64,000 nucleotides of DNA, from positions 7,054,073-7,118,072 of the forward strand of contig NC_087378.1 in NCBI RefSeq assembly GCF_963675165.1, in the 5' to 3' direction. The notes below the pieces were generated by a model. It saw only the letters and a program-made list of their open reading frames with translations. It searched no databases and had not been told where the DNA came from. The DNA comes from Halichondria panicea. Lineage: Eukaryota; Porifera; Demospongiae; Suberitida; Halichondriidae. Position 1 is the stretch's first letter. Every line of letters starts with the position of its first letter. Below are positions 6,782 to 36,469 of the stretch, one piece after another. A program made the translations under genes and the position numbers.

Positions 6782-9428
6782 ATGGCAGTAAACGTGTTTT
6801 CAACTTCTGCTACCACTGAGAACCTCAGTCGACATGACATGTTAGCTTGGATCAATGGCACCTTGCAGTGTAATTATACAAAAATTGAGGAGCTCTCCTC
6901 AGGTACATATATACCTCTGACTATAAACACTATTTTTAAGCCATCCGACGTTAGACATATACATTACCAGTCTGTGGCTAGTCAATTTACTGAAGAGACA
7001 ATTTCCTGGTGAAGGGGGTGTGGGTGGTTTGGTAGCATCGAACATTTGGCAAAGAGGGGGGTGTTGGTTGTTTAATACGGAATGTAGTTGTGTTGAGGGG
7101 TGTGGGTGGGTTGCTATGGGATTTAGTTGCATTGAAGGGGGGGGGGGTGGGTTGGTTGGTTCTGATCTGTGTGTATTACATTGTTGCTTTTCCAGGTGCT
7201 GCCTATTGTCAGTTTATGGACATGCTCTTTCCGGGTAAGTATGCTCGATTCACATAATTATTATTCACTTTCCTTAATGACTGCCACAGGGTGTTTGTCG
7301 TTGAAGAAAGTCAAATTCGCCACCAGACAGGAGCACGAATACATAAGCAACTACAAAATTGCTCAAAACTCTTTCAAGAAAGTTGGTGTTGACAAGGTAT
7401 GTGATAAGGTGCTAGAGTGATTTTTTCCATACACATACGTGATGACGTATAATTATTATTATGTACATGTTCTGATACTACTTACGTTATGATGGTCATG
7501 CATGATGATCGAATGTGCTTACTTACGCTATTCTTTATTCTACAGATTGTTCCCGTTGAGAAGCTGGTAAAGGGTAAATTTCAAGATAATTTCGAGTTTA
7601 TCCAATGGTTCAAGAAGTTTTTTGATGCCAACTACGATGGCAGTGAGTATGATGCTGCTGCAGCAAGAGATGGTCAACCATTGGCCACTGGGAATGCAGT
7701 TAACCAAATGAAAAAGGCTACCAGTAAGTCAACTATTGGGCTAGTAACAAACTATTGTATCTCGTAATCGTAGTCTAGAACGTAGCATCAATGTTGAATT
7801 AATTTTGTTGTTTTATAAGGGCCAATTTTTGGGCAGGAAAGGGCTTTGTGATAACTTTGGTACAGACTATTAAACATGCATATTGTAGTAGGCGGGGTCA
7901 GGAATTGCAATTAATCATGTCACCATTTTTAGGGCACTCGTGCTAACTATAATTATTGCAGCGCCTAGCAAATTTGGAGCAGCTAAGCCTGTTGGTGTAA
8001 GAAAAGTGCCCTCAAAGATCCAAACAACCAGACCTGCGGCAGCAACTAGGGCTCCTGTCAAGACAACTGTCGCTAAGCCTTCAACAAAGCCTGCTGCTCG
8101 ACCCGTGGGCTCAGGAGGGGGAGCACAGGCACCAGGAGTCAGTAGTGCAAAGTTGAAGGCTGCTGAGGCTACGATTAAAGACTTAGAAGCTCGAGTGAGA
8201 AATACTTCAGTACATGCGATAAAGTGTGCCGTAAAGTCACTTTACCTAACCTTGCACGTACATGTACTGTGTGTGTTAATTTTATACTGTTGCAGGTAGG
8301 GGAATTGGAGGTGAGTGTGAGTGGACTGGAAACAGAGAGGGACTTCTACTTTGGCAAGTTGAGAGATATAGAGAACACTTGTCAGGAGAACGAGTATGAT
8401 GATAATCCTTTGGTAAAACCTCTGCTGGATATCATGTATGCCACCCAGGTATGTCAGCATTGTACATACTTTTTCTTGTAGTGTGTTGAAAAGTTCTGTG
8501 TTGGGCCAAAAAACCCAATAACGAAACAAAAGGCTTATTTACCATTTTCCAGTGCGTATAACCAAGGGCGTATACAGAGAAGAGGGTATGCAACTCACTA
8601 TGTATCCTACGTACTCATCCGACTTCGTATCAGAGACCGGATATGCTAAAAATAGAATCCAGTATACGGATGTGAACAAGTGGGCGGTGTTGTTTACGGA
8701 GTTATAATTATGGGCGTGTACATCAGAGCTGCCTAGCTAGCTAGCTAACAGTGCAGTAAAATTTTAGAGAAGTGTCATGACCAGTCCTAGTCCAGCCAGG
8801 TCCAAGACAACCCCTTCGAGCATGAAGTTGAGTGCTGGGCGCATTGTTAAGAAGTACCAGAGACTCAGGAAGACAGATTATTGTACCTAGGTTTCATCTT
8901 CTTGGAGTTGCAACTGTTGGATGGTTTGCCTTTGCCTTTGACACTGCTAGTACAAGCCATACTGCTGCTGAGAACTAGTTTTACTATGCTGCAATCGAGC
9001 TAGCTAGCTGGCACAGATATAAAAATACTTTGATTTACCTTGTGCGGTCAAAGGTTACGCGTGGGCGTTTTTGTGGGCAGTTCTAAAAATAGCTCAATAC
9101 GAAGTCGGATGATTCTGAGAATGGGGCGAGTTGCATGCCCTCTTCTCTGTATACGCCCTTGGTATAACTTATGATTTGTTAGGGAACTTTCTGTATTAAA
9201 GGAAATATGCGCCTCGTAATCAATCACCACCCTCTACCACAGGATGGGTTTGAAAACCCTGACGAGGAGCCAGAATTAGTTGAACCCCTTGAGGATCCAC
9301 AGTATGAAGATCAGCTGTATGAAGATCCCCAGTACCAAGATCCCCAGTACCAAGATCCGCAGTACGAAGACGAGCAAGGCTATGCAGCGGAGGAGTATAA
9401 CTATGAGGATGAACAAGAGGAATATTAG
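6782..9428 (+). CDS. MAPRE1: microtubule end-binding protein EB1
   Basis: Seven exons: 6782-6902, 7196-7234, 7290-7396, 7546-7723, 7962-8194, 8296-8448, 9243-9428. All are in phase, giving 338 residues. Residues 1-130 form the calponin-homology domain that binds growing microtubule plus ends ([55 protein letters not shown]). A basic Ala/Pro/Thr linker follows. The coiled-coil/EBH domain lies near 205-277 ([20 protein letters not shown]), the site that receives SxIP partners. The tail ends EDEQEEY, the EEY motif read by CAP-Gly proteins. The tail is unusual: before EEY there are about five near-repeats of (P)QYxDP/QLYEDP that vertebrate EB1 lacks. The last intron holds a DNA-transposon-like element. 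Confidence 0.96.
8561..9163. mobile_element. non-autonomous DNA transposon in EB1 intron 6
   Basis: Long imperfect terminal inverted repeats: ACCAAGGGCGTATACAGAGA at the left end is matched in reverse complement at the right end. The similarity continues for about 70 bases, through a shared CATCCGACTTCGTAT block. Flanks carry ATA on both sides, so the target duplication is 2-3 bp. The only internal open frame is a 37-codon one at about 8777-8890 ([10 protein letters not shown]...). No transposase is visible. Confidence 0.8.
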
Positions 9429-9691: not shown

Positions 9692-12600
9692 ATGTCCAGT
9701 AACGAAGAGCCACAAGTGACTCCTCAGGAGACAGAGGAGCAAGAAGAAACATGCCCATGTGAGTGCAAAAGCATGCTGTGGAGATACCTCCACGTCTCCA
9801 GGTGTTCATACAACCCACATGTTGCATTCTGGTCCATAATCTTCTCTCTCTGCCTGCCCAGTGTCAAGCAATGCTCCCCAGACTGAGTACGGGACAGCTC
9901 CAGCTGCTGAGGTTGCTACTAGTCAGACTCCTGAAGACCTGATTGCCTGGTGGAACTCTGCCATCAAGGACTACGATGCCATGTTCATCATCTACTACCG
10001 TGGGGTCTGGTGACCCTACTGTAAGGTGAGCAGGGGAGAGGGGTAGCATTAATACAACCTATACGATATATGCAACTGTACTGTATTTATAAATTTGTGA
10101 TATGAGAGGTGAAGCAATTTGTGTTAAATTTACGGCTAGATAAACAAGGTGGTTTTGTACCCAGTAACACAATGGCTGCTCCAAGGTTCCAGTAGTACAT
10201 GTAGTGTGTGACAAACTGGTTGTACGACTACAGCTTATTACACAAGAGGTGTGTACCTTATTCATTGCGGTTATAATTATTAGTTTTGCTAATGAGTTAT
10301 TATATAATAGTGCACAATGGATGCATGCCCTGACTTCCTGTGAAGACATTATCTCCACTGTCCAGATATCCTTTTTGCTCCTTTGTCTGCTGACTGTATA
10401 CTGCATGCACATATCTGTTAGGCAGATCTTTTATATATTTATAGGTCAGCTATTTTAGCTCTCCTTTGTACTAATTATAGACATTAGTAATTCTAGTATT
10501 TTACTCAATTTTTCCAGGCAGTTAATCATCAGTTATTTTTTGATCTGTGTGTATTCTCCTCATGTGATGTGATACCCGGGTAACCCCTTGTCAACAAAAC
10601 ACCTTACCCTCCTCCCCCCTCCTCTGCAGGCTTACCTCAAGGAGTTCAATGATCTCCTTGGTGAGCTTAAGGGTAAGAATGTGGGTATCTTTGGCATCAC
10701 TGCTCAGAGTCAGGCTGACGCAGATAAGGCAGTGAGGGACTGGGGACTTCAATTTCAAGTGAGTCAAGTGTTAATACTGTGATTGTGTTGTCATCATAAA
10801 AGTAAACTGCTTGATGTATTCATTGCAGAAGAGTAACCCTCTAGTTGTGTGCTGTTAGGTTTTGTGTGTTATTGTTTTCCTTTACAAGACTGATAATTAT
10901 ATCTCACCCATTAAATTAAGCTGTGTATGTCGCAGTACTGTAAAAAATAGCCACTGGTATAATTTGTGTATTCCATGTACCTTAATGTTACTAAATTATA
11001 GACAGGTAGTAATTTTAGCGTTTTCAGATTTTTCTCTGTTTTAGGGTACTAATTTTGGCTGATTTGCAAATTCATTAGCACAATATTTGTCAAAAGATGT
11101 ACAAGTGATGAGTTTTAACGTTGAATGGAAAGTTTGGAGTCAGATACAGATGAAAAAAGGGCTAGCTTGCTTAGCATACTCTCAAAAGTACATTATACAA
11201 AATTACATTAGAAAAAGAGTTTTTTGAATTTTTTTAACGGGTACTTAATTTAGCGTTAATTAAATTAGTACCCGTTTATAATAGTAACAATAAGGTATAC
11301 ACTTCACCAGGAGTGCATCCTGACTTCACTAGCCTCAGTCCCAAGCCAAATATAACGGAAGGAGACAAATATAGCCTGGTATCTATTGCATGGGTGATTG
11401 ATTGCACATGTGTGTATTTATTTTTCAGAATCTGGGGATCCCTGTTCTCTAATGTATGCTTCTATCGAAGCAACTTAGCTCTCTATTGCGTTGGTCTAGA
11501 AAGCTTGCACACTAGTCTGAAGCGAGAAAGACTTTCATCTACCTCTATAATGGTCGTATGATATGGTTGGGATATCTGAGCTTGGTTCCGTACAGGCTAT
11601 GGCAAGTCTATGGTGCTTCCAACCGCTGCTTTTGAAGACAAATTGACCATACGGCCATCGTAAAAGTAGATGAGAGGCTGGCTTTAGACTAGTGTATAAG
11701 CCTACTAGACCAACGCAAAATAGGACGTAAGCTACAGCTTCACGTAACTCATTCACAGAGATTAAGTGAGTTTTAACAACGTTTTACTTTCGTTAGTACG
11801 ATTACCTATATTCTAGGTCATTTGAAGCGCATGCGCACTATCACCCATGCAATAGGTTCCAGGTCCTCTTTTCGACCTAGCGTTCAATTAGAGAAAAGTC
11901 AGGTGGGGAACTAGGCTTACACTACACACAGCCATCATGACACGTTCTAACCTTCCCCTGCAGGCATGGTCTGATCCTCAACACAAGTTGCGCAACTATC
12001 TCAACGATGAGGGTCTGATTGATATCAAGATATCAGGAGGCGAAAATTCCACCGACTCCGGCTTCTACAAGGTCCATCCCAAGATCAAAGAATACAAGTG
12101 GGGCGTTGCTCAGCCAGGTGTGCTCTGTGTGAATTCTGACAGGAAGCCTCTCTACGCTTGGGCCATCAATCCTTCTTTCGTGAGTTGTACTGACCATGAG
12201 CAATTTCTTGGTCATTGTTGCTTAGTTACTTTATCCACTACTGTGCTATTATGAATTGTGTAGTTTACTGTGTGCCCTTTCTGATGGCACATCTTATGTC
12301 TTCTGTCATCTATTTGACAGCTTAGTTTATCTACTCAGCTAGCTACTTATCGCTCTATCTAAATGCTCATTTACTATCGTATAAAATTAGTCATGGGGAT
12401 GCTCCTCACATAACTTATATAGAATATTAATAAAAGATGACGTCCTGTCAGAGGTAACCTAGTTCAGTTGTGTTAGGTGATTCTTTTAATTTTGTAACAC
12501 TTCTGGTCATGTTGTTTCTATCACGTAGCCTCACGTAGCCTCGTTTGGCTGCAGTTTTGCACATCAATATTGTTATTTCAGCTGGTGAATGGCTTCTTAA

Positions 12601-13737
12601 TTAGTCAGGTACGCTCAGCTAGCTCCTTGTTAATTAAATACTTCTATTAGCCTTGGTCAGGTAGGATCAGGTATTCAAGTAGCTGGGTCAGGTATCCCCA
12701 TGTTTTGTTTGTCTGTGGTCACGTAGTCTCAGGTAACACCACACGCTTCATGCATTGTCTAAGGCTTCAGGTCAGGTAGCCCCATATTTAATGAGTGTTT
12801 GTAATGTCTCTTGTCATGTATCCCTTGTTTCAAAGAATGTTTCTATTGCCTCAGGTCAGGTAGATGCATGCACACACTTGCCACTTCCTGCTCAGTTGCA
12901 CAGTTGCTATAGTATTGCTATGGACACATTGTGTGTGTACCTGACAGGAAGCTCAGCAACTAATTAGTAGTCTAAAGGAGCCTAGATGTCAATGATAACT
13001 ATTTAAGCCATTTGTCATTTTTGACTGGTGTAAAATTAATGTGTTAAGATAATTACGAGAAGCTAGCTACATAGTTTTAGAAGCATACTCCCTCCATGTA
13101 CAGTGGACAGTTTGGGAGTAGAGCTTTTGTCCTCTTTTTGGAGGTTGTCCTCTGGTGGGAGGTTCATTCAAATTTCATAGCATATATCAAAGACTTATAG
13201 ATAGCATGTTCATGTATGGTCTGTATACAGACCCTATTTCTAGCTAAGGAACTTTGAAATCAAAGAAGCAATATAAATTATTATGCGCAATGGCAGTATG
13301 ATTCGCATAACATTACAAATGACCTCTACCATATTGGACATAAACCGTGGGTATGGTTTCCTGTTTGTCCGTAATAAGCAAAGAGTTAGTCAGTTAGGAG
13401 CACGAAGCAGTTAGCTTGTCCGCTGTCTGGAATCAAGAAGGTCCGCTTGTGAGAGGTTGCTTAAAGTGTGTACTTAGATAGTGATTTCAATCCGTGCCAT
13501 AGCTAGTGTACTTTATAAGAAGTTGTCCTCGTACAATCCTTAGAAAAGCTAATACTGTGGTTGTGCTTGTGATAACAACACTCCTCCGTTTAGATGAACG
13601 TTGGTGGTGCCTCGGATCGTCCTGTTCCCCCGGACATCTGGACCATCGTCCAAGCAAAGATGATCGACCCTGATAGCCAGGATGTGCCAAGACGTTTACG
13701 CACCAGAGGAGTTTGCTCCCTCTGTAACATTCTTTAA
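9692..13737 (+). CDS. peroxiredoxin-like (AhpC/TSA) protein with UGA at the active-site cysteine; probable selenoprotein
   Basis: Five exons: 9692-9758, 9862-10025, 10630-10758, 11964-12179, 13594-13737. All are GT-AG and in phase, giving 239 residues if TGA at 10011-10013 is read as selenocysteine (residue 73). The region reads YYRGVW-U-PYCK. Bacterial and eukaryotic relatives have RGxWCPYC here, so the TGA replaces the first active-site Cys while the second (Cys76) is kept. Downstream come KAYLKEF, DPQHKL, GVAQPGVLC, YAWAINPS and NVGGASDRPVPPDIW, all hallmarks of the peroxiredoxin-like family. The C-terminus carries a CSLC motif. The likely role is a thioredoxin-fold peroxidase or thiol oxidoreductase. 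Apart from the TGA, exons 1 to 5 are free of stops and splice in frame. The alternative, a nonsense mutation in a dying gene, would have to hit exactly this codon. Confidence 0.82.
11237..11277. repeat. AT-rich palindrome in intron 3 of the peroxiredoxin-like gene
   Basis: Inverted arms beginning AACGGGTACT and ending AGTACCCGTT around an AT core. A truncated arm, gggtactaattttggct, lies near 11044, which suggests the palindrome is one end of a small element. Confidence 0.55.
11375..11862. mobile_element. nested inverted-repeat (MITE-like) insertion in intron 3
   Basis: Outer arms CCTGGTATCTATTGCATGGG and its reversed, slightly diverged partner ending near 11862. An inner pair of long arms runs about 11488-11718 (GCGTTGGTCTAGAAAGC at the left, reversed at the right). 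The later array units have much shorter introns at this position and lack this block, so it inserted in unit 1. No coding frame of note. Confidence 0.65.
12600..12865. repeat. cluster of TCAGGTA motifs in intron 4
   Basis: Seven exact TCAGGTA words occur within about 260 bases of intron, with several GTAGCCTCACGTAGCC relatives just upstream. The same block is present in the homologous intron of each array unit (near 15460-15730, 18060-18330, 20900-21160, 23450-23700). TCAG|GTA is a 3' splice site fused to a 5' splice site. Confidence 0.75.
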
Positions 13738-14361
13738 CAACTGCACATGCTGTATAAATCTTTACTAAGTTTTAATTTTGGACTTTGTTCTTTTGTGTAG
13801 TCAGGTAGTGTTATGACGGAAGATGTGCTAAACCAGTATTACTGAGGTACACTTCCCGAGGCCAGTGCTATGCGCTGTGTTCACACCTAACTGCTGAATT
13901 GTCATTGTTCTCTTGAATTTTATTTTGTTCAAATGCTGAATTTTTATACAAATTGACAAACACTGTACATAGGTACATTATTAAGTATACACAGTAAACA
14001 GACACACAAGCAGCTTTTTGCGTACGCCTCCTGCATGCGGCTATAATTATAGATCTACGCCCTGAGGCATAAGTTGCATGTCCTAAATGGTTTCGTACAC
14101 CACTATAAGAGTCAGCTTGTCCATTCATTTTTACCAGCTCCTGTCCTCCTGCAACATACTTTCAGCTTATAGTTATAATAACTGAAAGAAACAGGCCATA
14201 CTTTACTAATAAATTATAAATTTATTTAGTGGAATACGGTATTCCTTTACCCAATAAACTCAAGTGTTTTGCTCGGCCCTGTGTATTCTCCTCATGTGAT
14301 GTGATACCCGGGTAACCCCTTGCCAACAAAACACCTTACCCTCCTCCCCCCTCCTCTGCAG

Positions 14362-16352
14362 GCTTACCTCAAGGAGTTCAATGATCTCCTTGGTGAGCTT
14401 AAGGGTAAGCATGTGGGTATCTTTGCCATCACTGCTCAGAGTCAGGCTGACGCAGATAAGGCATGAGGGACTGGACTATTTTAAGTGAGTCAAGTGTTAA
14501 AATTGTGATTCATTGTTGTTATCATAACTTTAAAGAAGGTAAACTGCTGCTGAGTATGTACATTCATTGCAGAAGAGTAGGTTTTTGTTTTCTCACCTAT
14601 ATTAAACTGTGTATGTGCTTATAATTATATAATTATGTCCAAATAGCCATTGATATTCAATTATATCAAGTTCTTCCATGCGTGTATACACTACACACAG
14701 CCATCATGACACGTGCCAACCTTCCCCTGCAGGGATGGTCGGATCCTCAACACAAGTTGCACAACTATCTCAACGATGAGGGTCTGATTGATATCAAGAT
14801 ATTAGGAGGCGAGAATTTCACCGACTCCGGCTTCTACAGGTCCATCCCAAGATCAAAGAATACAAGTGGGGCGTCGCTCAGCCTGGTGTGCTCTGTGTGA
14901 ATTCTGACAGGAAGCCTCTCTACGCTTGGGCAAATCCATCCTCCTTCCTTTGTGAGTTGTACCGACAATTGTATTGATAGCAATTTAGTCTTAGTTGCTT
15001 ATATTATATACAGCTATACTTTATCTGCACGTAGCCACTATACTGTGTTGATGAGATGTTGTGTCTAGTTGAATTGTGAAATGGCAACTGCTAAATATTT
15101 ACTGTGTGCCCATTCTATTAAATGGAACATACACGTACACTTAATGCGTCTTTTATGTGCTATCTATTTTACATTACAGCTAAGTGTCTCAGCTTTTATA
15201 AGGCACGTTTTAAAACCATGGGGATGCTCCTCACATAATTGATGTAGGTTATTAATAAAGATGACGCCATGCAGGGGTATAACCTAAGCTCTTGAATTCT
15301 TGTAACACTTTTGCTCAGGTAATCGCAGGTAGCCCTTGTTTACATGACACTTCTATCATGTATAGCCTCACGTAGCCTCACGTTTTCAATTGCTTTGGCT
15401 GCAGCCATGCACTAAGTACCATTGCATATTGTTATTTCAGCTGGTGAATGGCTTAATTAGTCAGGTACTCTCAGCTAGTCCTTTGTTAATTAAATACTTC
15501 TATTAGCCTTGGTCAGGTAGGATCAGGTATTCAAGTAGCTGGGTCAGGTATCCCCATGTTTTGTTTGTCTGTGGTCACGTAGTCTCAGGTAACGGCACCA
15601 CATGCTTCATGCATTGTCTAAGTCTTCAGGTCAGGTAGCCCCATACTTAATGAGTGTTTGTAATGTCTCTTGTCATGTATCTCTTGTTTCAAAGAATGTT
15701 TCGATTGCCTCAGGTCAGGTAGATGCATGCACACACTTGCCACTTCCTGCTCAGTTGCACAGTTGCTATAGTATTGCTATGGGCACATTGTGTGTGTACC
15801 TGACAGGAAGCTCAGAAATTCATTGTGACTAATTAGTGGTTTAAAGGATCCTAGATGTCAATGGTATCATTTGCCATTTTTGACTGTTGGCATTAGTGTA
15901 AAATTAATGTGTTAAGATAATTACGAGAAGCTAGCTACATAGTTTTAGTATTGCTATGGACACAAACATTGTGCAAATTTGTGTGTACCTGACAGGAAAT
16001 AGCTCAGATGATATTTAGCCATCTTTGACTGTTGGTTAGCGTAGATACTTATGCGAAGCTAGCTACATCGTTTTAGAAGCATGACATTGTACTGACATTG
16101 TACTACATAGGATCTAAGTACAATTATGTATCCTTAGAATAGCTAACACTGTGGTTGTGCTTGCGATAATAGCACTCCTCCTCTGTTTAGATGAACATTG
16201 GTGGTGCCTCGGATCGTCCTGTTCCCCCGGACATCTGGACCATCATCCAAGCAAAGATGATCGACCCTGATAGCCAGGATGTGCCAAGACATTTACGCAC
16301 CAGAGGAGCTTGCTCCCTCTGTAACATTCTTACAACTGCACATGCCGTATAA
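14362..16352 (+). pseudogene. array unit 2: exons 3-5 of the peroxiredoxin-like gene
   Basis: Copies of exon 3 (14362-14484), exon 4 (14733-14951) and exon 5 (16191-16352), with their introns, follow the parent gene in the same orientation. The catalytic exons 1 and 2 are absent. Exon 3 has a single-base loss in the AAGGCAGTGAGG stretch and a shortened end; exon 4 has a single-base loss at the TACAAGGTC stretch. The unit cannot continue the parent reading frame. Between the parent's last exon and this unit (13738-14361) lies the 3' flank, which is repeated with each unit. Confidence 0.85.
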
Positions 16353-16794
16353 ATCTTAAAATTTTGGACTTCGTTCTTTTGTGTATAGTCAGGTAGTATT
16401 ATGATGGAAGATGTGCTAAACCAGTATTACTGAGGTACACTTCCCGAGGCTAATGCTATGCACTGTGTTCACACCTATAACTGCTTAATTGTCATTAATC
16501 TTTTGAATTTTATTTTTGTTCAAATGCTGAATTTTTATGAATCTATATGATATATATATTTTGACAAAAATTGTGCATAGGTACATTATTAAGTATACAG
16601 TAAACAGACACACGAGCAGCTTTTTGCATATGCCTCCTGCGGCTATACAGATCTACACCCCGAGGCATAAGTTACATGTCCTAAATGGTTATACCACTAT
16701 AGGAGTCAGCTTGCATGTTCATTCATTTTGCACATATTCCAGCTCTGTCCTGCAACATTTAATCAGTTATATAACCAGGCCATGGTGAATTTAA

Positions 16795-19205
16795 GGGTTG
16801 TGGGTAACTGCTCAGAGTCAGGCCGACACAGATAAGGCAGTGAGCTTCAATTTCAAGTGAGTCAAGTGTTAATACTGTGATTGTTGTCATCATAAATTTA
16901 AAGGTAAACTGCTGAGTATATGTATATTCATTACATACTCCTACTTAGGTTTTTCTGTGTTATTGTTTTCTCACCCATAGAACGGCCATAACTTTAGTTC
17001 CGATGGTCCAATTACGTTAATTTTATGATTTTCTGAAAGCTTAGAGAGAGGCCTTTCAGATAATGAGTTAATTAAAATCAAGCTGTGTATGTGCTAATAA
17101 TTATGTTCAGTACTGTACAAATAATTATAGCCACTGACATTTCAATTACATTTATGTCTTCCATGCATACATGTATACACTACACACAGCCATCATGACA
17201 CGTTCTAACCTTCCCCTGCAGGCATGGTCTGATCCTCAACACAAGTTGCGCAACTATCTCAACGATGAGGGTCTGATTGATATCAAGATATCAGGAGGCG
17301 AGAATTCCACCGACTCCGGCTTCTACAAGGTCCACCCCAAGATCAAAGAATACAAGTGGGGCGTTGCTCAGCCAGGTGTGCTCTGTGTGAATTCTGACAG
17401 GAAGCCTCTCTACGCTTGGGCCATCGCAATCCTTCCTTTGTGAGTTGTACTGACCATGTGTATTGATAGCAACTATTTCTTGGTCATTGTTGCTTAGCTA
17501 CTTTATCCATTACTGTGCTATTATATCAGATGAATTGTGGTTTTACTAGTTTACTGTGTGTCCTTTCTGATGGCGCATCCTATGTCTTCTGTAATCTATT
17601 CGACAGCTTAGTTTATCTACTCAGCTAGCTACTTATCGTAAATGCTCATCAGGGTGTCATACAGGGGGGGGGAGGGGGGATATCCCCCCCTAGCTCCAAT
17701 TTCCCCCCCCCTTTCAATTATGACTGAGTGTCCATAGCTGGGTATTGAAATAACAGTTTACCTTTTTTTAGCAACATTTTCTGGTTACTTTTCTCATTTC
17801 CCCCCTCTACTTCAAAATCCTGTATGACACCCTGCTCATTTACTATCGTATAAAATTAGTCATGGGATGCTTCTCACATAACTTAATGTAGAATATTAAT
17901 AAAAGATAACGTCCTGTCAGAGGTAACCTAGTTCAGTTGTGTTAGGTGATTCTTTTAATTTTATAACACTTCTGGTCATGTTGTTTCTATCACGTAGCCT
18001 CGTTTGGCTGCAGTTTTGCACATCAATATTGTTATTTCAGCTGGTGAATGGCTTCTTAATTAGTCAGGTACGCTCAGCTAGCTCCTTGTTAATTAAATAT
18101 TTCTATTAGCCTTGGTCAGGTAGGATCAGGTATTCAAGTAGCTGGTCAGGTATCCCCATGTTTTGTTTGTCTGTGGTCACGTAGTCTCAGGTAACACCAC
18201 ACGCTTCATGCATTGTCTAAGGCTTCAGGTCAGGTAGCCCCATACTTAATGAGTGTTTGTAATGTCTCTTGTCATGTATCTCTTGTTTCAAAGAATGTTT
18301 CTATTGCCTCAGGTCAGGTAGATGCATGCACACACTTGCCACTTCCTGCTCAGTTGCACAGTTGCTATAGTATTGCTATGGACACATTGTGTGTGTACCT
18401 GACAGGAAGCTCAGAAATTCATTGCGACTAATTAGTGGTCTAAAGGAGCCTAGATGTCAATGATAACTATTTAAGCCATTTGTCATTTTTGACTGTTGGC
18501 ATTAGTGTAAAATTAATGTGTTAAGATAATTACGAGAAGCTAGCTACATAGTTTTAAAAGCATACTCCCTCCATGTACAGTGGGCAGTTTGGGAGTAGAG
18601 CTTTTGTCCTCTTTTTGGAGGTTGTCCTCTGGTGGGAGGTTCATTCAAATTTCATAGCATATATCAAAGACTTATAGATAGTATGTTCAGACCCTATTTC
18701 TAGCTAAGGAACTTTGAAATCAAAGAAGCAATATAAATTATTATGCGCAATGGCAGTATGATTCGCATAACATTACAAATGACCTCTACCATATTGGACA
18801 TAAACCATGGGTGTGGTTTCCTGTTCGTCCGTAATAAGCAAAGAGTTAGTTAGGAGCACGAAGCAGTTAGCTTGTCCGCTGTCTGGAATCAAGAAGGTCC
18901 GCTTGTGAGAGGTTGCTTAAATTGTGTACTTAGATAGTGATTTCAATCCGTGCCATAGCTAGTGTACTTTATGAGAAGTTGTCCTCGTACAATTGTCTAT
19001 ATCCTTAGAAAAGCTAATACTGTGGTTGTGCTTATGATAACAACACTCCTCCTCCGTTTAGATGAACATTGGTGGTGCCTCAGATCGTCCTGTTCCCCCG
19101 GACATCTGGACCACCGTCCAAGCAAAGATGGTCGATCCTGATAGCCAGGATGTGCCAAGACATTTACGCACCAGAGGAGCTTGCTCCCTCTGTAACATTC
19201 TTTAA
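16795..19205 (+). pseudogene. array unit 3: truncated exon 3, exons 4 and 5
   Basis: Only the tail of exon 3 remains (about 16795-16857). Exon 4 (17222-17439) is nearly identical to the parent but has small insertions at its 3' end that shift the frame before the donor. Exon 5 (19062-19205) is full length and open, ending at the same CSLCNIL stop as the parent. Its intron 4 carries an extra MITE at 17650-17834. It is closest to unit 1 in sequence, whereas unit 2 resembles unit 4, so an early two-unit block was probably duplicated as a pair. Confidence 0.82.
17650..17834. mobile_element. MITE with CAGGGTGTCATACAGG termini, 5-bp target duplication
   Basis: Termini CAGGGTGTCATACAGG and CCTGTATGACACCCTG are exact inverted repeats. 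The flanks are CTCAT on both sides. The homologous intron of unit 1 (near 12366) has a single CTCAT and no insert, a clean empty site. A relative lies in an SF1 intron at 56800-56973 in the other orientation. The interior is C-rich and non-coding. Confidence 0.88.
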
Positions 19206-19826
19206 CAACTGCACATGCTGTATAAATCTTTAATTTTGGACTTTGTTCTTTGTGTAGTCAGGTAGTGTTATGACGGAAGATGTGCTAAACCAGTATTACT
19301 GAGGTACACTTCCCGAGGCCAGTGCTATGCACTGTGTTCACACCTAACTGCTCAATTGTCATTGTTCTCTTGAATTTTATTTTGTTCAAATGCTGAATTT
19401 TTATGAATAATTATATACAAATTGACAAACACTGTACATAGGTACATTATTAAGTATACACAGTAAACAGACACACAAGCAGCTTTTTGCGTATGCCTCC
19501 TGCATGCGGCTATATAGATCTACGCCCTGAGGCATAAGTTGCATGTCCTAAATGGTTTCGTACACCACTATAAGAGTCAGCTTGTCCATTCATTTTTACC
19601 AGCTCCTGTCCTCCTGCAACATACTTTCAGCTTATAGTTATAATAATTGAAAGAAACAGGCCATACTTTACTAATAAATTATAAATTTATTTAGTGGAAT
19701 ACGGTATTCCTTTACCCAATAAACTCAAGTGTTTTGCTCGGCCCTGTGTATTCTCCTCATGTGATGTGATACCAGGGTAACCCCTTGCCAACAAAACACC
19801 TTACCCTCCTCCCCCCTCCTCTGCAG

Positions 19827-21590
19827 GCTTACCTCAAGGAGTTCAATGATCTCCTTGGTGAGCTTAAGGGTAAGCATGTGGGTATCTTTGCCATCACTGC
19901 TCAGAGTCAGGCTGACGCAGATAAGGCAGTGAGGGACTGGACTATTTTAAGTGAGTCGAGTGTTAAAACTGTGATTTATTGCTGTTATCAAAACTGCTGC
20001 TGAGTATACATTCATTGCAGAAGAGTATCAGGTTTTTGTTTTCTCACCTATATTAAACTGTGTATGTGCTTATAATTATGTCCAAATAGCCATTGATATT
20101 CAAGTTCTTCCATGCGTGTGTATACACTACACACAGCCATCATGACACGTGCCAACCTTCCCCTGCAGGGATGGTCGGATCCTCAACACAAGTTGCACAA
20201 CTTTCTCAACGATGAGGGTCTGATTGATATCAAGATATCAGGAGGCGAGAATTTCACCGACTCCGGCTTCTACAGGTCCATCCCAAGATCAAAGAATACA
20301 AGTGGGGCGTTGCTCAGCCTGGTGTGCTCTGTGTGAATTCTGACAGGAAGCCTCTCTACGCTTGTGCCAATCCATCCTCCTTCCTTTGTGAGTTATACTG
20401 ACAATTGTATTGATAGCAATTTAGTCTTAGTTGCTTATATTATATACAGCTATACTTTATCTGCACGTAGCCACTATACTGTGTTGATGATATGTTGTGT
20501 TTAGTTGAATTGTGAAATGGTAACTGCTAAATATTTACTGTGTGCCCATTCTATTAAATGGAACATACACGTACACTTAATGCGTCTTTTATGTGCTATC
20601 TATTTTACATTACAGCTATAAGTGTCTCAGCTTTTATAAGGCACGTTTTAAAACCATGGGGATGCTCCTCACATAATTGATGTAGGTTATTAATAAAGAT
20701 GACACCATGCAGGGGTAGAGCCTAAGCTCTTGAATTCTTGTAACACTTTTGCTCAGGTAATCGCAGGTAGCCCTTGTTTACATGACACTTCTATCATGCA
20801 GCCTCACGTAGCCTCACGTTTTCAATTGCTTTGGCTGCAGTCATGCACTAAGTACCATTGCATATTGTTATTTCAGCTGGTGAATGGCCTTAATTAGTCA
20901 GGTACGCTCAGCTAGTCCTTTGTTAATTAAATACTTCTATTAGCCTTGGTCAGGTAGGATCAGGTATTCAAGTAGCTGGGTCAGGTATCCCCATGTTTTG
21001 TTTGTCAGTGGTCACGTAGTCTCAGGTAACACCACATGCTTCATGATTTGTCTAAGGCTTCAGGTCAGGTAGCCCTATACTTACGAGTGTTGTAATGTCT
21101 CTTGTCATGTATCTCTTGTTTCAAAGAATGTTTCTATTGCCTCAGGTCAGGTAGATGCATGCACACACTTGCCACTTCCTGCTCAGTTATACAGTTGCTA
21201 TAGTATTGCTATATGGACACAAACATTGTGCAAATTTGTGTGTACCTGACAGGAAATAGCCAGTGCATGTCAATGATTTTAGCCATCTTTGACTGTTGGT
21301 TAGTGTAGATAATTACGAGAAGCTATATAGCTACATCGTTTTAGAAGTATGACATTGTACTGACATTGTACTACATAGCAGTACAATTATGAAAAGCTAA
21401 TACTGTGGTTGTGCTTGTGATAACAACCCTCCTCCTCTGTTTAGATGAACATTGGTGGTGCCTCGGATCGTCCTGTTCCCCCGGACATCTGGACCATCGT
21501 CTAAGCAAAGGTGATCGACCCTGATACCCAGGATGTGCCAAGACGTTTACACACCAGTGGAGCTTGCTCCCTCTGTAACATTCTACAACT
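19827..21590 (+). pseudogene. array unit 4: exons 3-5
   Basis: Exon 3 copy 19827-19950, exon 4 copy 20169-20387, exon 5 copy from 21445. Exon 4 shares the single-base loss (TACAGGTCC) and the HNxLNDEG variant with unit 2, showing common descent. Exon 5 carries a CAA-to-TAA change (ATCGTCTAAGC). Flanking introns follow the same order as in the other units. Confidence 0.83.
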
Positions 21591-22213
21591 GCACATGCTG
21601 TATAAATCTTAACTAATTTTTAATTTTGGACTTTGTTCTTTTGTGTAATCAGGTAGTGTTATGACGGAAGATGTGCTAAACCAGTATTACTGAGGTACAC
21701 TTCCCGAGGCCAGTGCTATGCACTGTGTTCACACTTAACTGCTCAATTGTCATTGTTGTCTTGACTTTTATTTTTGTTCAAATGCTGAATGAATCTATAT
21801 AGATATAATTATACAAATTGACAAGAATTGTACACAGGTACATTATTAAGTATACAGTAAACAGACACACAAGCAGCTTTTTGCATATGCCTCCTGCGGC
21901 TATACAGATCTACGCGGACCCCGAGGTATAAGTTGCATGTCCTAAATGGTTATATATACCACTAGGAGGTTTCAGCTTGTCCATTCATTTTGCACATAAT
22001 TATTCCAGCTCTGTCCTGCAGCTTATAGTTATATAACCAGGCCCCATACTTTACTGTATCTAGACATTTATGTGGAATACGGTATTCCTTATACATTTAC
22101 CCATTAAATTCTAGTGCTTTGCTCGGCCCTGTGTGTATTCTCCTCATGTGATGTGATACTCGGGTAACCCCTTGCTAACAAAACACCTTACCCTCCTCCC
22201 CCCTCCTCTGCAG

Positions 22214-24242
22214 GCTTACCTCCAAGGAGTTCAATGATCTCCTTGGTGAGTTTAAGGGTAAGAATGTGGATATGTTTGGCAATCACTGCTCATGCAGAGT
22301 CAGGCTGACGCAGATAAGGCAGTGAGCTTCAATTTCAAGTGAGTCAAGTGTTAATACTGTGATTGTTGTCATCATAACTTTAAAGGTACTGCTGAGTATA
22401 TAAGCATACTCCTAGTTAGGTTATTGTTTTCTCACCCATAGAACGGCCATAACTTTAGTTCCAATGGTCCAATAACGTTAATTTTATGATTTTCTGAAAG
22501 CTTAGAGAGAGGCCTTTCAGATAATGAGTTAATTAAAATCAAGCTGTGTATGTGCTAATAATTATGTTCAGTACTGTACAAATAATTATAGCCACTGACA
22601 TTTCAATTACATTTGTGTCTTCCATGCATGCATGCATGTATACACTACACACAGCCACCATGACACGTGCTAACCTTCCCCTACAGGCATGGTCTGATCC
22701 TCAACACAAGTTGCGCAACTGTCTCAACGATGAGGGTCTGATTGATATCAAGATATCAGGGGGCAAGAATTTCACCGACTCCGGCTCCTACAAGGTCCAT
22801 CCCAAGATCAAAGAATACAAGTGGGGCGTTGCTCAGCCAGGTGTGCTCTGTGTGAATTCTGACAGGAAGCCTCTCTACGCTTGGGCCATCAACCCATCCT
22901 TTGTGAGTTGTACTTACCATGTGTATTGATAGCAATTTAGTCTCAGTTATATAGCTACTTTATCCTTTATCTGCACGTAGCCACTATATACTATGCCGAT
23001 GAGTTGTGGTGTATAGTTGAATTGAAATGGCAGCGACTGCTTTTACTAGTTAAATATTTACTGTGTGCCCATTCTATTAAATGGAACATACACGTACACG
23101 CGTCTTTTATGTGCATCTATTTTATATATAGCTAAGTAACTCAGGTTTTATAAGGCTTTTATCTAAATGCTACTATAGTATGCTTTGCACGTTTTAAAAT
23201 CATGGGGATGCTCCTTATATAATTGATGTAGGTTATTAATAAAGATGACGCCATGCAGGGGTATAACCTAAGCTCTTGAATTCTTGTAACACTAGTACTT
23301 TTCCTTAGGTAATCGCAGGTAGCCCTTGTTTACATGACACTTCTATCATGTAGCCTCACGTAGCCTCACGTTTTCAATTGCTTGTTTGGCTGCAGTCATG
23401 CATGCACTAAGCACCTCAATATTGTTATTTCAGCTGGTGAATGGCTTAATTAGTCAGGTACGCTCAGCTAGTCCTTTGTTAATTAATTAGCCTTGGTCAG
23501 GTAGGATCAGGTATTCAAGTAGCTGGGTCAGGTATCCCCATATTTTGTTTGTCAGTGGTCACGTAGTCTCAGGTAACACCACATGCTTCATGCATTGTTT
23601 AAGTCTTCAGGTCAGGTAGCCTGTACTTGTAATGTATCTCTAGATCTTGTTTCAAAGAATGTTTCTATTGCCTCAGGTCAGGTAGATGCATGCACACACT
23701 TGCCACTTCCTGCTCAGTTGTCATGCAAACATTGTGCAAACTTGTGTGTACCTGACAGGAAATAGCTCAGAAATTCAAAGGAGGCTTTCATTTAGTGTCA
23801 ATGATATTTAGCCATCTTTGACTGTTGGCATTAGTGTAGTACGAGAAGCTAGCTATAAGCATGGCATCGTACTGTAGTACAATTGTGTATCCTTAGAATA
23901 GCTAATAATTATTGTGATGTTGCTTGTGATAACAACACTCCTCCGCTCAGATGAACGTTGGTGGTAATTTGGATCGTTCTGTTCCTCCGGACATCTATTT
24001 GGTAAGAAATCTATGAGCACTCAATTACCAAGGCAATACCAAGAAGAATGCCCAAGGCTAAACCTGACCCATCGTCCAAGCAAAGATGATCGACCCTGAT
24101 AGCCAGGATGTGCCAAGACATTTACGCACCAGAGGAGTTTTCTCCCTCTGTAACATTCTTTACAACTGCATGCCCTAATTTTGACTTTGTTGTTTTGTGT
24201 AGGTAGTGTTATGACGAAAGGTGTGCTAAACCAGTATTTAAT
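22214..24242 (+). pseudogene. array unit 5: exons 3-5, disrupted
   Basis: Exon 3 copy 22214-22338 has an extra base in its first codons. Exon 4 copy 22687-22902 is full length, in frame and bounded by good splice sites, with a few amino-acid changes. Exon 5 copy starts at 23951 and is interrupted after about 50 bases by a 60-70 base insertion before resuming at CCCATCGTCC. The start of the 12-kb segmental duplication lies inside this unit. Confidence 0.8.
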
Positions 24243-25845
24243 ACTGAGGTAAACTTCCCAAGGCCAGTGCTATGCACTGTCTTCACACCTAACTGCACAA
24301 TTGTCATCGTTCTCTTGACTTTTATTTTGTTCAAATGCTGACTTTTTATCAATCGAACATCGTTCATAGGCACATAAAAAAAATTAAGTATATATACATG
24401 CAGTGAACAGATACACGAGCATTCCTGCGGCTATATATGCCCCGAGGGATAATAATTATTGTTGCATGTCCTAAATGTTTCCACCACTAGGAGGTATCAG
24501 CTTGTCCATCCAATTCTGCACATACTCCAGCTCCTGCATGAACATACTTTCATGATTACCACGGCTTAGTTACAACTGAAGCTAGAGCATGAAGTGCAAA
24601 CCCTCGGCGTTAATTTGGGGTTTAGTATAAAGTCTGGCGGGCAGATATCTTTTCGGGGGTAACAATTCCTCGCTTAGTGGATCTAAAATGTGGTATGGTG
24701 TTACAGTAATTATCTAGAAATGTACGTCAAAGCTCCGGATTACAGCCACTTCTGACTCTTGCTCTAATATATCATTGCTTATGCGCTGACGTACTTTTCT
24801 TGACTAGAGCCTTACAATTAGCATTACTAGTTAAAACAGGGCATGTGCTGTAGATGTTTGCCCACATGCACTTAATTTGATAATGCGCTCTGGTTGTGGT
24901 TAAAATTACAGTGATTGGTCAGGTCAGAGAATGTTTGACTATAAAAGGTGGATTACTGAGGAAATGTTCAGACATTCAGCTGGTGCTGGTTCATGAAAGA
25001 CTGCTGAGTTGCCACAATCTCTATTGTACTTGACCACATGATGGATACCTCAGTGTCGGGATATGGACCTCACCCTCACAATTGGAGCATGTATTTATGA
25101 GCTGCATTTATTATCCTTCTTCAAGAGTCTAGTCTTGTAAACTTCTGGACCTGGTAAAGGAATCCACGTGGTCTAGTGCAACATGAGTGTGTGCTTTTGG
25201 AATCACTTCCAACTATAGCCTCGGTCCCAGCCCGATTTTTTTTTAATAGAACGAAGTTGAAAAATACTAGTTGTTGGCCTAGCTAGAAACAACTCGGCCT
25301 GAAATCGAAGCTATTCCAACTATTGAGGGACTCGATCCACTCCAATCAACAGTTGAAGACAGCCTCGAGTCAAAGTCGCGTGTAGATATAGCCAGCCAAC
25401 GTACAGGTTAGCTTTTGCTAGCTCGTGTTTAGTCGGCAATAAAGTTTTGAAAAATTTACTTGTTATGTAGAGGCAAGTTTGTACAGGTAACTTGCCTCTA
25501 CATAACAAGTAAAAAGCCAACCCATGGTACAAACGCTGCTATGGCAGCCAGGTGAGCAGACTCAGAATACAGACAGACTGACCAACTGCTATAACTTGTG
25601 GCACCGGGAGTTAAAAAAACAGGTCATACTCTACCCGATCTCCGTTACAACCACAGGAAGCTGTATGTTTTAATGGTGATCGCTTTTGGATGTTCAGACC
25701 GACTGTGGCTGTAATCGAGGTGGTATGCTAAATGGAGACATGCATTGGAGCCTATAATCTAACTTTTACAGTTATATAGAGGGTGACAGCTAGTACTGTT
25801 ACAGTAGCTTCTGCTGAATTAATGGTAATAGCAACAGTCACTGTG
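24243..25845. other. non-coding stretch with array flank and a hairpin
   Basis: Contains the repeated 3' flank of the peroxiredoxin array to about 24540. Then follows unique sequence shared only with copy 2 of the segmental duplication, with no supported exon. A near-perfect hairpin lies at about 25448-25513 (arms TTTACTTGTTATGTAGAGGC). In copy 2 this place is rearranged. A possible last LYPLA exon could lie here, but I cannot place it. Confidence 0.55.
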
Positions 25846-28957
<3,112 letters not shown>

Positions 28958-29271
28958 TTTCCCCCCAGACAAAAGTGGGAGGGGTTAGGGTGGGGATGCC
29001 TTTTTGCAGAGTCCCTTTTGTAGCCGAGGATAAAAGCCAGGGCATGGAAGCTCCTCCACTCCATCACAATTCCTTTCCAGTGATCTACCTTAGCATTGCA
29101 GTGAAAGGCTTGTACTAGCACTGTTACAATATGTAAGGGTAGATCTAATGATCACACTAGACATTGCTAGATATAGATATATATCAGTGCTGAGTGTTTT
29201 GTGGTAAATATATATATATATATATAGTATGCTTCTAAAAACTAATTGATGTGATTTTCTGTCCTCGTTAG
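28958..29271. promoter_or_regulatory. head-to-head interval between LYPLA and the unknown-family gene, copy 1
   Basis: Lies between the LYPLA start and the first supported exon of the plus-strand gene, and should hold both 5' ends. Contains an (AT)n tract near 29209-29226. The first exon of the plus-strand gene is not identified. Confidence 0.45.
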
Positions 29272-30654
29272 GTCCAATGGTGCGACCATCAATCCACCCT
29301 GCAGGAGACACAGTCAAGAGATTGAAGATAAGGACTAGAGCGTTTGCTAGCCGATTCTTTGAGCTCAGCCATTGTCATGACAAAACTTCGGATGAACTAT
29401 TCTGAGTGGATTCATAATCTAGAACCTAGGTAACACTGTAGCCATGTCACAATGTCTTATGACCATACAGATCTTAAATATTTGTTATTGCATGTCTTAC
29501 TTTCTCCAAATGCTAAATTCACAACCAACCAATCAACTTGTTATTCAGGGGGCCGAGCGGACCTCCACTGCCACCTACAGATGCTGAGAGTTCAAACATT
29601 TCCTCATCGAAATACTTTGTAAGTAGACGTCTATTTTGGAATCTTTTTCGTGTTATTTGCATGCTTGTATATTATAGGCATATCATCATATTTCTGCTGC
29701 TGATCGTGAGATGACTTCAGTCCTGTGTCTAGAGAGTGGCCAACCACCCAGTTTGGTTCCATTTATCCCTTCCACAGTGTCCGCCTTTAAAGGTGACATT
29801 TAATAATTACAATTCGGTCATAAACTTAATCAGCGTGCTTTTACAGAATGCACACAACTCATTAAACGGGATTTTAGATCCAACCAAGAAGGAGTAGAAA
29901 AAGCCAATCTGACAAGCCATGCATTTGGCATGATCATTCTTTGTTACACTGATGACGAACCAAAGGCCTCATCATTGAATGTTATTTCTGAGGTATGTAT
30001 AGTATTTAGGTATCTCACTCATGCATGTACATGCAACTATTATATTTTGCAGGAAGCCATGAAAAGCGGAGTAAAGACAGAAGGCTATACTCAATCGTGC
30101 ATCAACATAGAGATAGATGATCGAAAACCTCAAGATGAAAACAACACTGCTCTTTACTTTAAAACAGACCAATTCTACTACTATATCCATGTACGAGATT
30201 CAAATCGACCAACTCTTGAACCTAGATATGTAAACGTAAAGGACCACACATCTGACGAAGTTTATAACCATCTCCAATTCAGGTCAGTATATACCCTGAC
30301 AAACTTAATCTCAGAAAAGAAGATGGAACTTTAGTAGAGACATCCAAAAATGCTGCTACAAGGATTCGTAATGGAGTAACAGATGCAATGAATAGCTATG
30401 TTCAAGATAATAGCCATGGTAACCAGGCAACTGGAAGTTCACAACCTAAAGTAAGTTTGCAGTGACTGCTTTTTTTCTGTATTATCTGATATTTTCAGGT
30501 TTTGAACGACTGTGAAGAGAAAGAAGTCACTAATGGAGGTTTTCACTGTTGCCAGTTTCTATTAAAGATTCTTGTTTTTCCATGTAAATATCTAGATAAA
30601 AATATTATTGTTGAAAGTATAATACATGACTTTAATTTAATTGTGAGTGGGTAG
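29272..30654 (+). pseudogene. unknown-family gene A, copy 1 (damaged)
   Basis: Exon-like blocks 29272-29428, 29549-29618, 29678-29792, 29847-29992, 30053-30449 and 30499-30654, matching gene A of copy 2. The first block has lost one base (GAAGATAAGGAC versus GAAGATAATGGAC), which breaks its frame. A later block differs by small insertions around GTCAGTATATACCCTG. The last two blocks join in phase (CAACCTAAA to GTTTTGAAC) and end at TAG 30652-30654. I do not recognise the family. The core motifs are YHHIS near its start and ALYFKTDQFYYYIHV, both shared with gene B next door. Expression cannot be judged from sequence. Confidence 0.6.
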
Positions 30655-31314
30655 TAGACTAGGCTGGGTGGATCTCGGGAATCAAGCGCATGCGCTAACA
30701 TCAGATTTGTGGCTACAAAAAGAGCTACAATGCTGCTAGCACTGTTATTGGACTGCAGTACGTACAACCTCTCTGCTTTCATCTCTAGTAAGCTAAGGTG
30801 AGTTATATGAGTTATGAGATATCTATACCAGGTCGTAACTGTGTTAAACTACTGCATTTGCATGTCTGGTATACTGCATGGTTGATATTATAGATATTAA
30901 AGCTACATTGTGTTTGTACCTCAAAATGGTTTCTATTGTGTGCTCCCAATTAATCACCAATAAAGTTATAGTTATAGTTTATGTCTATCGTAATTTGATC
31001 CAAGCCAACATAACTGTGTATATTCAGTAGAACATAATTATATTTGTGTGGATGCAGCTATTAGCTACTTGCTGTGGCAACCAGATTTAGATGAAACCTT
31101 ACAACATTTGCAAACATATGCCCTACAGCTATCTACCTTACTTTGCGGTGGTTATTCCCTAATACAACTGTATTTAAATTGTTGCGAATTGAAGAAGCCA
31201 CATTTTACTCAATTGATAAAACAGATATCACTACAAATGTTATAGTACCCTGCTATACTACACACTCCATGTGTTAGTTTATAATGCAAGTATTTTGTCC
31301 TAATCCCAGCAACA
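30655..31314. other. spacer between genes A and B, copy 1
   Basis: Probable 3' flank of gene A and 5' region of gene B, with a splice acceptor just before the gene B ATG, suggesting a 5'UTR intron. A 65-codon frame at 31048-31245 is present in both copies but is shorter in copy 2 and matches nothing I know. Confidence 0.4.
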
Positions 31315-33011
31315 ATGGAGTCCCATGGCATCTTTATCAAACCAACTAGCAATGAATTCTTTGCCGTTAGTAAATTGTTAATGAAATTTGCTGAGAGTAC
31401 TCAGTTTGGCGATGAGGATAGTTCAAATGGACTGATCATACCTCAGGCTATCAGGTAAGACCAATGCTACATAAGTGCACTGTCATACCAACCCTGGAGC
31501 AGATAATCTTTTTTGCATGTGTGTTTTGGTGGTGGTGTTTCATAGCAGTAATGTTAGTAGTGTCAACATAACAAAGGAAACACCATGGATTCACAAGAGA
31601 AAATATTTTGTATACTCTGTTTATCTGTATAATTATAGATGCGCTTTCAGGTAGGAAAAAGAAAACAACAGAAAACTTACACTGTCTGGTTCCCCTGCAC
31701 AAAATATAGTACAGCCTTGAATAAACAATAAGCACTGAATGATTGCACCACAACCAATACGTAGCTCCAAGTGAATGTACAATGGTAAATTGAAGTACTC
31801 TTCCCCCTCCTCTCATGCATACATAGCCCTGAACGTACTCAGCGTGTCCAGAAGAATGGTCCAGGAGGGAAAGGAAAGACCAATGCTCCACCTGTAATGT
31901 CTCTACGGTCTGTTAATGGAGAACTTTACGTTGTTGACAATGGACAAATGGTTGAAAAGGGATATTTTGTAAGAATTATGTTCCTTACGTAATGACTAAA
32001 TATTTTTACATGCTACAATGTCACGCATGACTAATGAAATTGCTACAGGAATATCATCACATCTCTTCGGCTGAAATGATCTCAATCCTGAAACTTGGCA
32101 ATGATCCAACCCACGAGTCTCCAACTCTGGTGCCTTTAGTGGATAGTTATCACCCTGATGGTAAGAAGCATTTAAAGCACATGCACGGTTGCACTTTCAC
32201 ACTATTCTCTTTACAGGTACCAAGCTCAGTAAACATAATTACCCCAAACAAGAGACGCCCACTTCAGAAACAGTGAACTTGCTGGGTGTTGAGTATGGTA
32301 ATACACTGGCTCTGGAATACAGTGATGACCCCAAGGACACTCACGCCAAGCTAGTCATTCTATCACAGGTAAAGCACAACAACGTATACACCAGTGACTA
32401 TCTTATATCCCCTGCAGCATGAGTTGAAACAGATCATGGAAGATATGGAGAAAGGAAAGAAGATGAGTTTCAAGATAAATCCGGTAATCAAGATTCGCAC
32501 ACTGGTGGAAATGGCCAATCCGTCAGCCTCCAGTGATACTCCAAACAACATTGCTCTCTACTTTGAGACCTCTCGGTTCTACTACTACATCCACGTGGAT
32601 TCCACTGTGAATCCACCCATACTAGACCTGAAGCCGACAGAGAAGACAAAAGCATTCGATCCTCACAAAGATTTTGTGAGACATTTACAATTTGTAGAGC
32701 GAGCAATAGTGAAAAAAGAGGATGGGAAGCTTGCAACTCTTGCAGAAGACCAAAAAGACGGGCCAGAGATAGATGATCTGCCTGATATCAACAGTCTCAA
32801 TTTAGTCAGCCGCTCTGAGAGTGACCCTGTTGCAAGCATACCAACAGTTCTGCAATTTCTGTCTGAGCCAAGCAACCACAACGACCGAAATTTGAAGGAA
32901 AAAGAAAAAGAAATCATCACGAATGACTCGACAATCAAGAGTAATGGAAATGATCTCATAGAAGAGTCAGAGTCGTCAGTTGAAACTGGACCTGTCACAG
33001 TGGATGTGTGA
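31315..33011 (+). CDS. unknown-family gene B, copy 1
   Basis: Five exons: 31315-31454, 31827-31968, 32049-32160, 32217-32368, 32418-33011. All are GT-AG and in phase, giving 379 residues. It starts MESHGIFIKPTSN. The second exon encodes a Gly/Lys-rich loop (KNGPGGKGKTNAPPVMSLR) and NGELYVVDNGQ, the third EYHHISSAEM, and the last the signature ALYFETSRFYYYIHV followed by HKDFVRHLQFVERA. The last about 100 residues are acidic and low in complexity. No signal peptide or membrane span. Exon phases and the YHHIS and FYYYIHV motifs match gene A, so A and B are tandem paralogues. Both copies of B are intact over all five exons, which suggests that the function is kept. Function unknown. Confidence 0.8.
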
Positions 33012-33566
33012 AAGTGTCAAGTAACAACTCCCTAAAACTGAAACTATAATTATCATGACTCATAATAGATCATTTTTGTAGCATAAATTATCTAAAGGTA
33101 CGTGTATAATTGCACCCGTATTCATTCTTATTAGCTATACAGGAGTATATTAATCTTATTCATGGCTAACAGTAATTTACTTAATTGTATATACATGTAC
33201 TCCTGGCTATGTCCATACATGTAGCAGCCCACACAGACATGCTAATTAGTCCATATTGGGGGTGGGGGAAAACCCAGAGCACGTTATTAATTATAGTCTC
33301 CTAATTGGCTTAACTTGTACACTGACAACACAGCATTTGAGATCATCAACAACAGTAACAAACATGCTGACACAAGTAATTTACTTCCCCAAACATGCAG
33401 ACCATAACATAGAGCAAAAATAGCAAATACATATATACTACAAACACCAGTGATGTAATTCGTATTTCACAACAAAAAATAACTTTATGTTCACCATAAA
33501 AATTCAGAGACTGTACGTCCCACTTGTTTCAAGCCTTGTGTGAGTGCCATGACGATGCATCAGTCT
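33012..33566. other. convergent 3' region between gene B and PhyH, copy 1
   Basis: Holds the 3'UTRs of two convergent genes. No open frame of note. A matching region lies at 51202-51753 in copy 2. Confidence 0.5.
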
Positions 33567-35879: not shown

Positions 35880-36100
35880 CTCCTCCCCTCCTCTGCAGGC
35901 TTACCTCAAGGAGTTCAATGATCTCCTTGGTGAGCGGGTAAGAATGTGGGTATCTTTGCCATCACTGGTCAGGCAGACGCTGATGAGGCAGTGAGAGACT
36001 GGAGACTTGAAGTAGGGCGTTGCTCAGCCTGGTGTACATGTGCTCTGTGTGAGTTTTGACAGGAAGCCTCTGTATATACGCTTGGGCAGCAGTGCCTAAT
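35880..36100 (+). pseudogene. array unit 6: exon 3 fused to part of exon 4
   Basis: The usual tctgcag acceptor and GCTTACCTCAAGGAGTTCAA of exon 3 are present. After a shortened exon 3 (to GACTGGAGACTTGAAG) the sequence runs directly into the second half of exon 4 (GGGCGTTGCTCAGCCTGGTG) with no intron. Intron-4-like sequence follows to about 36400. This is either a large internal deletion or a processed intermediate patched into the array; the flanking intron sequence favours deletion. Confidence 0.75.
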
Positions 36101-36469
36101 GTACTCCTGGCTTGGGCTATAAATCCATCTTTTGTGAGTTGTACTGGCAATCACCAATTTAGTATTATAGTTGCTTATAATTATAGCTACTTTATCTGCT
36201 CGTAGCCACTACTGTGCCGATGAGTTGTAGTGTATATAGTTGAAGCAACTGCTTTTATTAGCTAAATATTTACTGTGTGCTCCGCTCAATCTATATGGAA
36301 CATGCTACTCTCTATATACACGTGCATGTGCACTTAATGTGATTTTATATGCTCTCTATACTGGTTCCCGAACACAGTGAGGGTTTTACTAGCCCTGAGG
36401 GCTTCTAAATCATGTGGAAACTTCCTAAACTATTATGTATATATAATTATTATAATGGGTCATGGACTT

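Follow-up and report, generated by a model that had tools for sequence, protein, structure and literature searches.

AphC-like selenoproteins of animals were described by Jiang et al. in 2012 (PMC3473315) in Amphimedon queenslandica (three genes), Oscarella carmela, and Suberites domuncula; according to the passages of that paper devoted to this family, they are found, among animals, in sponges only. The same passages report that Aq.AphC.like_c is divided into five coding exons and maps to a different scaffold from genes a and b, and that the SECIS elements of Aq.AphC.like a, b, and c are classed as GUGA_AA. Outside animals, an algal survey records an AhpC_b selenoprotein with a UxxC motif in one alga, the diatom Thalassiosira oceanica (PMC7539508, in the part on AhpC_b). 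Bacterial UxxC Prx-like selenoproteins with the PF00578 domain appear in excerpts of PMC9312934, PMC13188914, and PMC2398784.

The window analyzed here, a stretch of 64,000 nucleotides, harbors a gene resembling these systems. Like the Aq, Oc, and Sd.AphC.like proteins, as portrayed in the relevant passages of PMC3473315, its product is a predicted thioredoxin-fold AhpC-like protein with Sec, encoded by UGA with a putative SECIS behind the gene; it also shares the five coding exons of Aq.AphC.like_c. With the T. oceanica AhpC_b, likened by its description in the survey (PMC7539508), it has in common a eukaryotic AhpC/TSA protein, a UxxC motif, and a SECIS, here a candidate one. The AhpC-TSA domain and the UxxC motif are also those of the bacterial Prx-like selenoproteins, which, in contrast to the five-exon gene of the window, consist of a single reading frame. 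Unlike the GUGA_AA elements of Aq.AphC.like a, b, and c, the core here is AUGA; GUGA_AA is a trait of three loci, not stated in those passages (PMC3473315) as family-defining, and this difference leaves identity with Aq.AphC.like_c unproven. Compared by description only, the gene may be Aq.AphC.like_c itself, an orthologue from a different sponge, or a paralogue that the paper does not list. The initial annotation had presented an animal gene of this type as a notable selenoprotein; such a protein is not new, sponge members having been published in PMC3473315. The selenoprotein kind is thus already known, and what the present analysis contributes is the candidate SECIS together with an array of partial copies. 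The window adds raw-sequence support, with a candidate SECIS, to a kind recorded among animals from sponges in those passages (PMC3473315), and the locus is a place for the direct testing of Sec insertion.

A five-exon gene with an in-frame TGA

The gene lies on the + strand and comprises the following features:

9692-9758, + strand: exon 1 of the predicted selenoprotein gene, from the spliced frame and a gt donor, with a presumed start codon
9862-10025, + strand: exon 2, with the in-frame TGA; ag and gt borders, frame open except for the TGA
10011-10013, + strand: TGA read as putative selenocysteine (U of UPYC), codon 73; Cys in 6/6 fetched bacterial homologues
10630-10758, + strand: exon 3; ag and gt borders, the AhpC-TSA match covering exons 2-4
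11964-12179, + strand: exon 4; ag and gt borders
13594-13737, + strand: exon 5, with an ag acceptor and the TAA stop

The five joined exons, with ag|...|gt borders, form a spliced frame of 240 codons that closes with TAA at 13735-13737. The encoded protein is 239 residues long, the Sec site included, and codon 73 is the sole internal TGA, in the context YYRGVW-TGA-PYCK. Read directly on the + strand, 10005-10025 is GTC TGG TGA CCC TAC TGT AAG. The initial annotation had described a frame open across five exons, a TGA falling on the reactive Cys site, and a second Cys encoded by a normal TGT; these observations are borne out by the canonical splice borders, by the Cys that faces the TGA in all six fetched bacterial homologues, and by the TGT of the stretch just given. 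Taken as a stop, the TGA would terminate the protein at residue 72. Omission of exon 2 (164 nt) was computed to cause a frameshift with stops shortly after, so that no in-frame skipping of the TGA is possible. The 17-base motif containing the TGA has one mismatch-free match in the window and six further allowed matches, each with 3 mismatches, against a chance expectation of 2.67 matches.

The protein matches Pfam AhpC-TSA (PF00578; 1.4e-11, 44.8 bits versus a gathering score of 26) and Redoxin (3.9e-06), both above cut-off. NCBIfam yields five weak matches, all far under their cut-offs; the SelL-related redox protein model (NF040769) stays under its curated cut-off of 120 with 16.3 bits. A tblastn search against plasmids returns 35 records, the best being 29% identical across 88% of the query length. 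Among the 20 listed of these 35 rows, 10 are annotated as peroxiredoxin-like family protein, 3 as other redoxins or alkyl hydroperoxide reductase, and 7 are unannotated. The site corresponds to the motif RGxWCPYC, whose second Cys is retained in the six fetched homologues, taken from the 35 plasmid records. A search of genome contigs with a single protein query found no relative. Matches in the PDB are weak, the best being protein disulfide-isomerase A4 (E 0.0002, in two stretches, each above 1), with ResA at 0.021; in these two weak alignments, the Sec site falls on the first Cys of the CxxC of PDI and ResA.

Classical peroxiredoxins display the motif PxxxTxxC at the peroxidatic Cys (PMC9925728, in the part on this motif). 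This motif is absent here, where the site reads YYRGVWUPYC, lacking its Pro and Thr. The label "peroxiredoxin-like" of the initial annotation holds insofar as proteins of the "peroxiredoxin-like family" align, and does not extend to classical peroxiredoxins. Judged from its sequence, the protein is very likely a selenoprotein of the UxxC type, Prx-like and not a classical peroxiredoxin. Since the PDB alignments, weak as they are, are of the CxxC type and PxxxTxxC is absent, it likely acts as a Prx-like thiol:disulfide oxidoreductase whose nucleophile is a selenolate.

The TGA is in all probability a selenocysteine codon, and the gene would encode a 239-residue AhpC/TSA (Prx-like) selenoprotein with a Sec-Pro-Tyr-Cys motif; this reading follows from the position of the reactive Cys in the relatives and from the apparent SECIS 3' of the gene. 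The eukaryotic Sec machinery comprises SBP2 and EFSec with Sec-tRNA. In the mechanism that we infer for an expressed gene, the SECIS of the 3' UTR, 576 nt past the UGA, would recruit this machinery, and UGA 73 would be decoded as Sec. The selenolate would then attack a hydroperoxide or disulfide, resolution of the intermediate would fall to the Cys at position +3, and a thioredoxin-type reductant would regenerate the enzyme.

The candidate SECIS and its array of copies

The element behind the gene and the partial copies that follow it are all on the + strand:

13804-13870, + strand: SECIS-like element, AUGA_AA type, form-II-like, from Rfam SECIS_1, scanner, and shuffles; scanner core 13813-13859
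14362-16468, + strand: partial copy 2, exons 3, 4, and 5 with SECIS, exons 3 and 4 frameshifted; from blastn, alignment, and Rfam (16.5 bits)
16807-19337, + strand: partial copy 3, an exon 3 remnant, exons 4 and 5, SECIS core intact; from blastn and alignment
19827-21728, + strand: partial copy 4, exons 3-5, the last of which contains a stop, and a SECIS with intact core; from blastn and alignment
22214-24280, + strand: partial copy 5, a shifted exon 3, an open exon 4, an interrupted exon 5, and a SECIS with CGA changed to CAA; from blastn and alignment
35899-36133, + strand: remnants of exons 3 and 4; from blastn, tblastn, and alignment
41322-41537, + strand: remnant of exon 5 and a SECIS with a broken core; from blastn and alignment

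The gene's element is composed of AUGA at 13813, an 11-bp helix, an AAA bulge, a mini-stem, and CGA, and its AUGA starts 75 nt past the stop codon. The initial annotation had made its selenoprotein depend on a SECIS in the mRNA, and a SECIS-like element is present at the proper place, as indicated by Rfam (under cut-off), a scanner, and shuffles. Rfam SECIS_1 matches 13804-13869 over its model positions 1-64 of 64, with 16.8 bits, under the gathering score of 35; AUGA, the bulge AAA, and the GA on the 3' side of the core are all preserved in the alignment. Over 801 bases and 4227 families, this match has an E of 3.6, two snoRNA families scoring better (2.2 and 2.4), and it is the sole match, with an E of 0.55, in a scan of 121 bases. 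A scan of 8.4 kb up to E 10 did not include SECIS among its matches, the shorter stretches having revealed it, and the whole-window scan at gathering scores gave no match. A 45-base version of the stem-loop has a folding energy of -14.1 kcal/mol (z -2.98). In an 81-base fold (z -1.49), the UGAC of the core pairs elsewhere. Helix I is weak and missing from the constrained fold.

Because it accepted a single simple loop only, a first SECIS scanner came up empty on both strands. The second, designed when the Rfam match was already known, asked for AUGA or GUGA, at least 9 pairs, an unpaired AA, and a 3' GA, and admitted an internal bulge and a mini-stem. Over both strands of the whole window (128 kb), it yields 9 hits for the + strand and a single one for the - strand. 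The top four comprise the gene's element and three array copies, from -13.3 to -13.0, the next hit being at -10.1; no hit in the window surpasses the gene's element, which shares first place with two array copies. Dinucleotide shuffling of the window (400 shuffles, one strand each) produced 32 hits of -13.0 or better, spread over 28 of the 400, giving a chance rate of 0.000625 per 500 nt. No tRNA gene was detected in the window.

Exons 3-5 and the SECIS are repeated in the partial copies at 14362-24280, as revealed by blastn; exon 2 does not recur in the window, and the sole match to exon 1 spans 23 bases (E 0.010). Alignments read by eye indicate that none of copies 2-6 is intact, the damage consisting of frameshifts, deletions, a stop, or an insertion. 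The SECIS core is intact in four of the six copies, the gene's own counted, and in the two others CGA is changed to CAA and helix II mispairs. Rfam scans copy by copy covered copies 2 and 5: the SECIS of copy 2 scores 16.5 bits, and that of copy 5 goes unmatched up to E 10. A covariation analysis of the six SECIS copies reveals no two-sided change, so that the copies are no proof of the SECIS structure. The drawn structure, derived from these same sequences, pairs in 97.0% of cells, versus at most 50.0% when slid.

From their sequence, the copies are best interpreted as remnants left by partial tandem duplication. Their use as alternative 3' cassettes was also considered and ranked low, since copies 2-6 are broken. 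The SECIS appears to have been duplicated along with the exons, part of the downstream copies having it intact and part broken, and these copies form a small natural series for probing SECIS requirements. The part of PMC3473315 on the Aq.AphC.like genes makes no mention of such an array, nor was a title or abstract reporting a partial-copy array at a locus of this kind found in searches of the open-licence literature, which addressed tandem or partial duplication only narrowly. Within partial copy 3, a hairpin of a G-run and a C-run lies at 17661-17715, with chance-level Rfam matches on both strands.

TGA in bacterial relatives and the competing readings

Bacterial and archaeal genomes were scanned for DNA encoding YRGxW-TGA-P(Y/F)C, and at least 119 bacterial stretches carry a TGA in this motif, 80 of which are named among the listed matches. 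With the window's protein as a tblastn query (up to E 1), the TGA falls on the Sec position in 116 of the 119 stretches listed, a count that is by itself no test since the scan pattern requires the TGA; the three others (L034, L085, and L094) have no match to the protein up to E 1. In a small database of the listed matches, 70 of the 116 aligned stretches reach an E of 1e-3 or less. Beyond the TGA, the reading frame remains open for 100 codons or more in 109 of the 109 listed stretches where it closes within the fetched DNA, and it runs off the end of this DNA in the remaining 10 of the 119. The listed loci share little identity with the window's protein, 17-50% across their best local stretches.

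Among the matches listed, TGA in this motif is widespread in bacteria, Poribacteria included. Five of the 80 named Sec-form matches (L007, L009, L039, L054, and L075) are Poribacteria, a group known from sponges, and another (L052) is Desulfoluna spongiiphila. A tree of 109 Sec rows, 6 Cys rows, and the window's protein, from which the 10 scan rows running off the DNA were dropped, does not place this protein, which sits on a branch 2.87 changes per column in length. Poribacteria contribute four rows to this tree, and these cluster together, with the window's protein outside. Acquisition by the animal lineage of a bacterial gene already in Sec form, with the UGA kept and the bacterial signal swapped for a eukaryotic 3' UTR SECIS, is conceivable and rather unlikely.

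The broken state of the adjoining copies 2-6 might suggest that the gene is itself a decaying pseudogene, its TGA being a plain nonsense mutation in a locus dying like the partial copies downstream. However, five exons, splice borders, and frame are intact but for one codon, this codon lies at the redox Cys site, where bacterial relatives carry TGA too, and a SECIS-like element stands downstream; such a decay is very improbable. A sequencing or assembly error, the real codon being TGT or TGC in an ordinary Cys protein, would require a chance hit on exactly the redox Cys codon, and would leave the SECIS-like element without use; such an error is the least probable explanation of all.

The identity of the element may also be disputed, as 13804-13870 holds, by direct reading, an open frame ending in TGA after a possible splice acceptor; it would then be a last coding exon (S-G-S-V-M-T-E-D-V-L-N-Q-Y-Y-stop) instead of a SECIS, and its conservation would be coding. 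Yet the frame of the gene has already been ended by the TAA at 13735-13737, and the identity between copies extends beyond the TGA of this putative exon, across the 3' half of the stem. Furthermore, Rfam aligns the SECIS_1 model over its full length, and the drawn structure pairs far better in place than slid, albeit on the sequences from which it was derived. A coding exon at this position is accordingly even less credible than a pseudogene, and a selenocysteine codon served by a 3' SECIS is the preferred reading.

Neighborhood of the gene

Beyond the array, the window contains a direct repeat of about 9.5 kb with 94% identity (25712-35053 and 43886-53237), flanked by the repeats 24041-24998/41294-42248 and 35051-35735/53420-54105. 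This direct repeat reflects either segmental duplication on a large scale or a pair of collapsed-apart haplotypes. Upstream of the selenoprotein candidate, a neighboring gene on the + strand (about 6783-9428) has an N-terminal piece with a calponin homology domain (Pfam CH, 2.2e-14). By eye, its C-terminus reads ...EDEQEEY, an ending that we take to resemble those of EB1/MAPRE proteins. Its last intron holds at about 8560-9165, also by eye, two inverted copies, each some 35 bases long (ccaagggcgtatacagagaagagggtatgcaactc and its complement), which enclose approximately 600 bases in an arrangement resembling a non-autonomous DNA transposon.
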